Source: Streptomyces rhizosphaerihabitans
Lineage (GTDB): Bacteria; Actinomycetota; Actinomycetes; Streptomycetales; Streptomycetaceae
Length of the DNA stretch: 64,000 nucleotides
Direction of reading: 5' to 3'
Assembly: GCF_025399795.1 (NCBI RefSeq)
Contig: NZ_JAODTZ010000010.1
Span: 62,001-126,000 of the forward strand
Below, piece by piece: positions 3,930 through 11,930 of the stretch. Numbering within the stretch: the stretch's first letter is position 1; every line of letters begins with the position of its first letter. The notes below the pieces were generated by a model. It saw only the letters and a program-made list of their open reading frames with translations. It was not told the DNA's origin and ran no database searches. A program made the translations under genes and the position numbers.

Positions 3930-4415
3930 TCAGGCGTTCGCGGGCGCGTTCAGGGGCTGCGGCATCCGGCGCCACTTCTCCTGGACGACCACCTGGCGCA
4001 GCCGCCAGCCGTCGCCGGTGCGCAGCAGGCCGAAGGCGTAACGGCCGCCGCACACGAGGTCGGGCGCGGTGGAATCCCCGTCCTGTCCCGCGAACCGCAT
4101 CGGGTTGATGTAGTCCGCCTGCACCTCGGCCGTGTCACCGGTGTCCTGATCCAGGACGCCGAACCGCAGGCGCCTGTTGACGATGAGGTGCTGGCGCATC
4201 GCGAACAGTTCCAGGCTCTGCGAGAGCCACCCGGCGACCTCGGTGGCGTCGCCCTCGATGCCACCCGCCGAGCGGTAGTCGGCGCGGCCCTCCGACGTGA
4301 ACAGCCCCCGGTACGCCTCCCAGTCGCCGTCGTCCACTGCCACCGCGTACGCGGTGACGATCTCGTCCACGGCGAACCGGTCCAGCACGGTCGCGAGCTC
4401 CACACGCTGCGTCAT
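3930..4415 (-). CDS. SnoaL-like / NTF2-fold protein
   Basis: 161 aa from the ATG at 4413-4415. The sequence has the alpha+beta cone layout of the family: an N-terminal helical segment with VDEIVTAYAVAVDDGDWEAYRGLF, a central strand set, and a C-terminal WRLRQVVVQEKW. Families with this fold include limonene-epoxide-hydrolase-like enzymes, polyketide cyclases and many proteins without known activity; no specific catalytic set can be assigned. It is divergent from the SDR gene at 4751 and shares with it a promoter carrying two tandem palindromes, which suggests joint control and perhaps a common substrate. Confidence 0.8.
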   Translation of the reverse strand: MTQRVELATVLDRFAVDEIVTAYAVAVDDGDWEAYRGLFTSEGRADYRSAGGIEGDATEVAGWLSQSLELFAMRQHLIVNRRLRFGVLDQDTGDTAEVQADYINPMRFAGQDGDSTAPDLVCGGRYAFGLLRTGDGWRLRQVVVQEKWRRMPQPLNAPANA

Positions 4416-4750
4416 CGGCTCAGTGTTGGCCACGGGGCCTGCCACGCCAAGAGGCTGTGCGGGGATATTCGATGTCCGGCAGGATTCGGTCCGGCATCGT
4501 CCGCTCCGTCCGGGCGGTCTCGTGGGTGAGGCGGCACCGCTACGCGGGTGAGCTGAGCCTGGAAGTCCGCGACGCCATGCCGAGACCGGCGCGGATCCGC
4601 GATCGCCGCTGATCCATGATCGACCGCGGACGAACGGGTCCATGGTGATTCCATGGGGGTGTCCCACCCCAGTCGATGGGGGTGTCCCACCCCAGTCGAT
4701 CACCCCTGCCGGGTGCGTCGGCGACTCGTCTGCCACTCCAGGAGGCTCTT
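4416..4750. other. Divergent promoter region
   Basis: 335 bp between the SnoaL-like and SDR genes. Apart from the tandem palindromes at 4655-4700 it contains two copies of CCATGG around TGATT (4640-4655). I see no coding sequence. Confidence 0.6.
4655..4700. promoter_or_regulatory. Two perfect 23-bp tandem palindromic units
   Basis: Two identical 23-bp units (4655-4677 and 4678-4700) each contain the inverted repeat GGGGTG-TCC-CACCCC followed by AGTCGAT. They end 50 bp before the SDR start codon and lie 240 bp from the SnoaL-like start. The exact repeat spacing of about two helical turns and the internal dyad are what a cooperative dimeric repressor site would look like. No regulator gene is adjacent. 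Confidence 0.6.
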
Positions 4751-5491
4751 ATGGCACGCCCTGTCACGATCGTCACGGGCGGCAGCCGAGGGATCGGCGC
4801 CGCGACCTGTACCCGGCTCGCGGCGGACGGGCACGACATCGTCGTCGGTTACGTGAGCGACGGCGAGGCCGCCGAGCGGACCGCGGCCGCCGTCCGCTCG
4901 GCCGGGGCACGCTGTGCCACGGTGCGTGTGGACACCTCCGACGAGGCCGACGTCGAGCGGCTCTTCGACACGGCCGCGAACCGGTTGGGGCAGGTGACAG
5001 GGCTGGTGAACAACGCCGGGGTGACCGGACCGCTCGGGCGGCTCGCGGACGCCGACCCCGCAGATCTGCGGCGTGTGATCGAGGTCAACCTGCTCGGCAC
5101 GTTGCTGTGTTCGCGTCGCGCCGCCCGGTCCATGGCCACCCTGGGAGGCGGCGCCATCGTGAACGTGTCCTCGGCGGCCGCCACGCTCGGCAGTCCCGGC
5201 GAATTCGTGCACTACGCGGCGAGCAAGGCGGCCGTCGACGCGCTGACCACGGGACTCGCCAAGGAACTCGGCCCCGACGGCATCCGGGTCAACGCCGTCG
5301 CGCCCGGCATGATCGACACCGAGATGCACGCGACCATGGGAGACCCGGGTCGTGCCGAACGCGCCGCTTCGTCGATCCCGCTGCGCCGCGTCGGCGGGGC
5401 GGAGGAAGTCGCCGCCGCCGTCGCGTGGTTGATGTCGCCCGAGGCGTCGTACACGACGGGGGCGGTGCTCCGGGTGTCCGGAGGGCGGTGA
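4751..5491 (+). CDS. Short-chain dehydrogenase/reductase (SDR)
   Basis: 246 aa classical SDR. The cofactor motif TGGSRGIG is at residues 9-16, NNAG at 87-90, and the catalytic Ser (140/141), Tyr155 and Lys159 are all present, followed by PGMIDTEM. The GGSRGIG form and length resemble 3-oxoacyl-ACP reductase-like and sugar dehydrogenase members. The ATG at 4751 follows CAGGAGGCTCTT, so longer in-frame starts within the palindromes were rejected. It probably acts in the cytosol on a small carbonyl or alcohol substrate that cannot be named. Confidence 0.9.
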   Translation: MARPVTIVTGGSRGIGAATCTRLAADGHDIVVGYVSDGEAAERTAAAVRSAGARCATVRVDTSDEADVERLFDTAANRLGQVTGLVNNAGVTGPLGRLADADPADLRRVIEVNLLGTLLCSRRAARSMATLGGGAIVNVSSAAATLGSPGEFVHYAASKAAVDALTTGLAKELGPDGIRVNAVAPGMIDTEMHATMGDPGRAERAASSIPLRRVGGAEEVAAAVAWLMSPEASYTTGAVLRVSGGR

Positions 5492-11351: not shown

Positions 11352-11363
11352 GTCGTACTGTCG

Positions 11364-11412
11364 CCCGCTGCCCGCTGCCCGCTGCCCGCTGCCCGCTGCC
11401 CGCTGCCCGCTG
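11364..11412. repeat. Seven perfect copies of the heptamer CCCGCTG
   Basis: An uninterrupted 7 x 7-bp array begins 13 bp after the cupin stop and lies between convergent genes. The perfect identity of all copies points to recent expansion by slippage, so copy number is likely to vary between strains. Confidence 0.9.
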
Positions 11413-11468
11413 CCTACACCTGTGCCCGCACCTGCGCCTGAGCCTGTGCGCGTCCCCCGTGTCAGCGG

Positions 11469-11930
11469 CTACGCCGCCGCGGGCCCCGTCACCGTCCAGC
11501 CCGGGGCCTGGGGGTGGGCCGTGAGGGCCTCGTGTTCGACCTGCTCTCCGCATTCCCGGCACACCACCTGGGGGACCAGTTCGTGGCCGCAGGCGTGCTC
11601 CAGGACCATGGGCCGGAAGCCGCCCTCCTGGAGATGCCGGTCACCCCAGGCCATGAGTGTCAGCAGGACGGGCTCCAGTTCGAGCCCCGCCCGTGTCGGC
11701 CGGTATTCGTAGCGCCTGGGGCGGTCGCTGTACTCCGCCTTCTCCAGCAGCCCGGCGTCGACGAGGCGCTTCAGCCGGGTCGTCAGCACGTCGCGAGGGG
11801 CGCCGGTGTTGCGTACGAGCTGGTCGAAGCGTGTGGCTCCGAGAGACACCTCGCGCAGGACCAGCAGCGAGTACTTCTCGCCGACGACGGCAAGTGTCGC
11901 GGCGATCGAGCAGGGGCGGGGGTCTTTCAT
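11469..11930 (-). CDS. HxlR-family transcriptional regulator
   Basis: 153 aa. The winged helix spans about residues 8-95 with CSIAATLAVVGEKYSLLVLREV and the family's characteristic RFDQLVRNTGAPRDVLTTRLKRL. The first cysteine (C7) is the residue that senses redox or electrophiles in some HxlR proteins. A C-terminal extension contains CRECGE and an upstream CGH, a possible small metal or redox site that is not typical of the shortest family members. It is divergent from the thiolase gene, and two dyads lie between them, so autoregulation and control of the thiolase are likely. Confidence 0.88.
   Translation of the reverse strand: MKDPRPCSIAATLAVVGEKYSLLVLREVSLGATRFDQLVRNTGAPRDVLTTRLKRLVDAGLLEKAEYSDRPRRYEYRPTRAGLELEPVLLTLMAWGDRHLQEGGFRPMVLEHACGHELVPQVVCRECGEQVEHEALTAHPQAPGWTVTGPAAA

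Follow-up and report, generated by a model that had tools for sequence, protein, structure and literature searches.

A probable recent tandem duplication of a palindromic 23-bp unit upstream of a short-chain dehydrogenase gene in Streptomyces rhizosphaerihabitans

The window analysed here, a stretch of 64,000 nt from the genome of Streptomyces rhizosphaerihabitans, contains a SnoaL-like gene and a short-chain dehydrogenase (SDR) oxidoreductase gene that diverge from a 335-bp gap (Table 1). The original prediction described two identical palindromes in this gap, and direct reading and a pattern search confirmed them. The sequence GGGGTGTCCCACCCC is present twice with no mismatches, each copy having arms GGGGTG and CACCCC around a 3-nt spacer. 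The copies belong to a 48-bp stretch of perfect 23-bp periodicity (100% matches between copies), although a unit taken to start at position 4650 gives copies with a single-base difference (TCC/TCG). With the palindrome that adjoins them, three perfect palindromes lie within 54 bp (4640-4693). The two copies had been placed on the same face of the helix, but their centres are 23 bp apart, which at the 10.5 bp per turn of B-DNA is about 2.2 turns and leaves them offset by about 70 degrees. The statement that no regulator is encoded nearby was inexact, as an HxlR-type gene lies 6.8 kb away. A perfect heptanucleotide array (GCCCGCT, 7.4 copies) occupies positions 11363-11414 of the window.

Table 1. 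Features of the SnoaL-SDR locus and the nearest regulator gene identified; positions are those of the window.
Feature	Position	Strand	Basis or remark
SnoaL-like gene	3930..4415	-	Pfam PF13577; divergent from SDR gene
Degenerate TGATCGATGATCGATCA copy, 3 mismatches; candidate operator of SDR promoter	4610..4626	+	Overlaps kept block 4613-4632
Third palindrome, CCATGG-TGATT-CCATGG	4640..4656	no strand	One base in common with palindrome copy 1
Perfect 23-bp tandem duplication, 2.1 copies	4653..4700	no strand	Tandem Repeats Finder
Palindrome copy 1, GGGGTG-TCC-CACCCC	4656..4670	no strand	Pattern search
Palindrome copy 2, same as copy 1	4679..4693	no strand	Pattern search
AGGAGG, likely ribosome-binding site of SDR gene	4740..4745	+	Read directly; kept in relatives
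SDR oxidoreductase gene	4751..5491	+	Pfam PF13561, PF00106
HxlR-type regulator gene	11469-11930	-	6.8 kb from repeats; nearest regulator gene identified

When the intergenic region was aligned with those of the closest relatives found, three genomes with SDR identities of 93, 89 and 87%, two segments proved to be kept, the approximately 60 bp adjoining SnoaL and a promoter-like block, TCCATGATCGACCGCGGACG (4613-4632), which the third relative (87%) keeps in part only. The repeat-bearing segment is missing from all three. The repeats start 20 bp downstream of the block that the two nearest relatives retain, and this block is 137 nt from the SDR start compared to 69 and 88 nt in those relatives; the leader is therefore longer in this genome and the repeats fall within its extra part. 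From this arrangement the repeats, which had been assigned to a divergent promoter, sit downstream of the conserved promoter-like block and are probably within the transcribed leader of the SDR gene. Scanning 4380-4800 for promoter and terminator consensus sequences found neither, and a search of a plasmid collection with the SnoaL-SDR intergenic region gave no match. The leader itself (query 4600-4760) was found in no other genome among 100 relatives, two of which gave short, weak matches. At the opposite end of the gap, conservation in the genus is good over the approximately 60 bp that adjoin the SnoaL start (4416-4480, with GATATTC among them); the best matches have 80-92% identity, and this segment is probably the SnoaL promoter and leader.

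The orthologous promoters were examined in a genus sample of one genome per species, in which an SDR match with E <= 1e-60 is present in 111 of 199 genomes, this one among them. In 36 genomes including this one, the sequence preceding the SDR gene was read over as much as 220 nt (one region, L024, comprised 132 nt), and the SDR-matching genomes beyond these 36 were covered by an exact search for the 15-mer alone. The general form of the palindrome, GGGGTGNNNCACCCC, is found upstream of the SDR gene in this genome only and in none of the other 35 read. The motif is thus absent, at the level of sequence, from the orthologous promoters, a result that the original prediction had named as evidence against itself. 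The SnoaL and SDR genes are divergent in 21 other genomes (26 rows minus two of this genome and three duplicates), with a compact gap of 143-277 bp in 14 and a wide gap of 731-1233 bp in seven; none has GGGGTGNNNCACCCC between the two genes.

A search of the 10.2-Mb genome for other copies, the check proposed in the original prediction, found no third exact copy of GGGGTGTCCCACCCC, so there is no set of genes sharing the motif. With any middle triplet allowed, GGGGTGNNNCACCCC occurs at five sites compared to one for a reversed control, or four to one if the pair in the window is counted once. Searches with the 15-mer at <=2 mismatches gave 36 matches on the forward strand and 29 on the reverse, where the control gave 30 and 15 (65 vs 45); in these counts a near-palindromic site can score on both strands. 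No common gene type was seen around the six one-mismatch sites. These excesses over the controls, and the crowding of three palindromes into 54 bp, count mildly against a simple duplication as the explanation.

The GGGGTGNNNCACCCC excess and the presence of two exact intergenic dyads would suit a young, lineage-specific site at which two dimers of a regulator govern the divergent genes. The pair does resemble known transcription-factor operators with tandem dyads in having two identical intergenic inverted repeats, but, unlike them, it lacks a regulon and a known partner and is not conserved at those orthologous promoters that were read. All 35 of those promoters lack it, the genome has no other exact copy, the distance between the dyads does not correspond to an integral number of helical turns, and a different, conserved box is located in the same promoter (see below). 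A twin operator is therefore unlikely, and the sequence comparisons do not support reading the repeats as a conserved transcription-factor operator. A CsoR-type copper operator is extremely improbable. CsoR sites are G/C-tract inverted repeats, which gives a general resemblance, and one of the two CsoR-family genes has a one-mismatch copy of the palindrome, GGGCTGTCCCACCCC, at a distance of about 1.6 kb. However, the dyad upstream of that gene is TATACCCACCAGGGGTATA and the other CsoR gene is preceded by TACCC-N4-GGGTA; since both motifs differ from the palindrome in the window, this candidate was rejected. A dispersed palindromic repeat of the REP or MITE type was also rejected, because there are only two exact copies and they lie side by side.

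Elsewhere in the genus, the exact 15-mer occurs at 22 places in 391 other genomes, one per genome, compared to 17 places in 16 genomes for its reversed control, a frequency close to background. Ten of the 22 belong to one homologous coding family, typed as EccB from one member; by alignment the 15-mer is inside the gene in all ten, nine of which were flagged by a crude coding test. No SDR or SnoaL ortholog is encoded within about 1.5 kb on either side of the 22 places, where the sole SDR matches have about 31% identity. The tandem pair was found in one of 199 genus genomes, the genome studied here. Across 84,980 species genomes, a scan that may omit records of this genome or a very near one found tandem GGGGTGNNNCACCCC with a gap of 4-14 nt at seven places, four in Nitrospirae/Nitrospirota MAGs, one in Leisingera and two in Streptomyces (L043 and L044), and none of them has the SDR or SnoaL gene of the window within the flanking sequence retrieved. 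The Nitrospirae/Nitrospirota pairs are on four contigs (L040, L041, L045 and L046), two of them from one MAG, and tandem GGGGTGNNNCACCCC is possibly a repeat characteristic of that group.

At one of the two Streptomyces places, in Streptomyces sp. SKN60, a nearly identical palindrome, GGGGTGTCACACCCC, is doubled in tandem (L043:5495-5534), but at the 3' end of a gene, of DUF475/TerC type, where the pair in the window is upstream of one. The genome studied here has a single palindrome of the GGGGTGTCACACCCC type at the end of the same DUF475/TerC-type gene (L004:1501-1515), so such palindromes also double outside divergent promoters. Literature searches with the 15-mer, its reverse complement, TCA and TGA variants and one CsoR-like string found nothing, nor did a search on palindromic operators of Streptomyces SDR or SnoaL genes. 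Searches combining palindromes with tandem duplication, slippage, inverted repeats and hairpins returned no bacterial case by title among the papers listed.

How often such structures arise in this genome was estimated from 864 kb, made up of the window and forty 20-kb stretches. Exact tandem duplications with a period of 15-45 and at least two copies number 32 in this sample, a tally that counts nested runs of one array separately. Like the other 31 runs, the pair in the window consists of exact head-to-tail copies beside single-copy sequence, as is general for short tandem duplications of this exactness in bacteria rich in G+C; it differs from that general type in that its unit holds a perfect 6-3-6 palindrome and sits upstream of a gene. 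Perfect 6-3-6 palindromes are also frequent (602 in the 864 kb, 43 of them in the window). When random 23-mers from this genome were doubled, 6.4% contained a palindrome with 6-bp arms and a spacer of 0-5, and 1.5% one with a spacer of exactly 3. Among the real duplications, three of 32 contain a palindrome, the pair in the window included, and another 48-nt duplication of period 23 (L118:16728-16775) has none. With both ingredients common, a duplication holding a palindrome is to be expected somewhere in such a genome. A crude coding mask divided the 32 duplications into 13 coding and 19 not, a split left unused because the mask miscalled the pair in the window as coding, long spurious frames crossing it.

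If the SDR transcript starts near position 4620, the mRNA leader would contain one small triloop hairpin for each copy of the repeat. A copy folded alone is predicted to form such a hairpin, at -10.2 kcal/mol, and within the folded leader the copies pair differently. The leader as a whole has a z-score of -1.25, with 18 of 200 shuffles folding equally well, and the stretch from the ribosome-binding site to the start codon has a predicted openness of 0.65 with two copies, 0.65 with one and 0.60 with none. As the leader is not unusually stable and the openness nearly unchanged, little effect on expression would be expected from these models. Repeat hairpins that set the stability or translation of the SDR mRNA would fit the stable fold of the lone copy and the location of the repeats, 3' to the promoter-like block. 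Against such a functional leader element are the ordinary stability of the leader, a ribosome-binding site whose predicted openness is nearly independent of the copies, and the fact that the relatives manage without the repeats; we regard it as quite unlikely.

A different element in the same upstream region is a better operator candidate on sequence grounds. This is a degenerate copy of the palindromic motif TGATCGATGATCGATCA, here called the TGATC box, and it is the sole match to the motif at <=3 mismatches in the window, where 0.05 would be expected and 5 of 100 shuffles contain at least one. Twelve of the other 35 upstream regions have a -10-like sequence, TANNNTGATC, that precedes the SDR start by 39-79 nt, and in five of those 12 it runs into a perfect TGATCGATGATCGATCA just upstream of the SDR gene. 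Within the 36 regions, this genome's included, six have the motif within 3 mismatches and nine within 4, whereas 20 composition shuffles averaged 0.0 and 0.05; the count is partly circular because the motif was derived from some of the same regions. Most of the 36 regions are without the box.

Searching the genus for the exact 17-mer is free of this circularity. It is present in 80 of 101 genomes compared to none for the reversed control, and in 42 of 46 loci, among the matches listed, aceE lies directly downstream (18-166 nt). The remaining four of these listed loci are two SDR loci and two that show only a neighbouring GntR-family gene. The product of the GntR-family gene beside aceE is one speculative candidate for a protein that binds the box. 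The genome studied here also has an exact copy at aceE (L153:1501-1517; G000:C51:77632-77648). In two genomes, G072 and G087, a second exact copy lies just upstream of SDR relatives of 65% and 63% identity; these may be paralogs, as is suggested by the 65% SDR relative that the present genome holds of its own. The box at aceE is thus a palindromic promoter-region element with a degenerate copy in the same SDR upstream region as the repeats. It differs from the duplicated palindrome in being unrelated in sequence and conserved across the genus.

Literature searches for the TGATCGATGATCGATCA box, and for a Streptomyces regulon linking palindromes at aceE1 and crotonyl-CoA genes, found nothing. 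In S. avermitilis, SAV742 is reported to bind the aceE1 promoter (PMC5107987), and it recognises GCCGA/TCGGC repeats, unlike TGATCGATGATCGATCA. A one-mismatch form of the box, TGAGCGATGATCGATCA, was seen in the interval that separates a TetR-type gene from a crotonyl-CoA carboxylase/reductase gene (L161:1501-1517, G094:C12). This form occurs in 7 of 15 genomes, this one included, among the matches listed, with the context read at L161 only. Doubled GGCAC...GTGCC inverted repeats are located near the box both at aceE (L153, about 1560-1640) and at the crotonyl-CoA reductase gene (L161, about 1570-1610).

Taken together, the likely explanation of the repeats is that a 23-bp unit, in which a short G+C palindrome is present by coincidence, was recently duplicated in tandem in this lineage, within an extended SDR leader. 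The original prediction held that so exact a repeat implies function or very recent duplication. Its second half stands, given a tandem pair confined to this genome among 199 of the genus; its first half, taken as an operator, is contradicted, as far as sequence goes, by the 35 promoters without the motif and the lack of a further exact copy. Between the promoter-like block and the ribosome-binding site at 4740, the unit would have been doubled through slipped-strand replication, a process that its ability to form a hairpin would promote. The duplication is probably near-neutral, with an effect on expression that would be small or nil, and the feature is real but most likely ordinary. The older TGATC box (4610-4626) is the more probable site of transcriptional control at the SDR promoter.

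A decidedly unlikely course of events is that the lineage has newly acquired its own operator or leader hairpin just downstream of the TGATC box and then duplicated it, layering a second control on a central-metabolism regulon. If true, the TGATC box would tie the SDR promoter to that of aceE (pyruvate dehydrogenase), and a newly acquired control would overlie an older one. Under the preferred reading, a recent duplication, the locus serves as a caution. Perfect duplicated palindromes resemble operators, yet both ingredients are common in a G+C-rich genome and it is conservation that distinguishes them. The TGATC box is the more promising element and worth following, since copies of TGATCGATGATCGATCA at SDR promoters predict control in common with pyruvate dehydrogenase (aceE).
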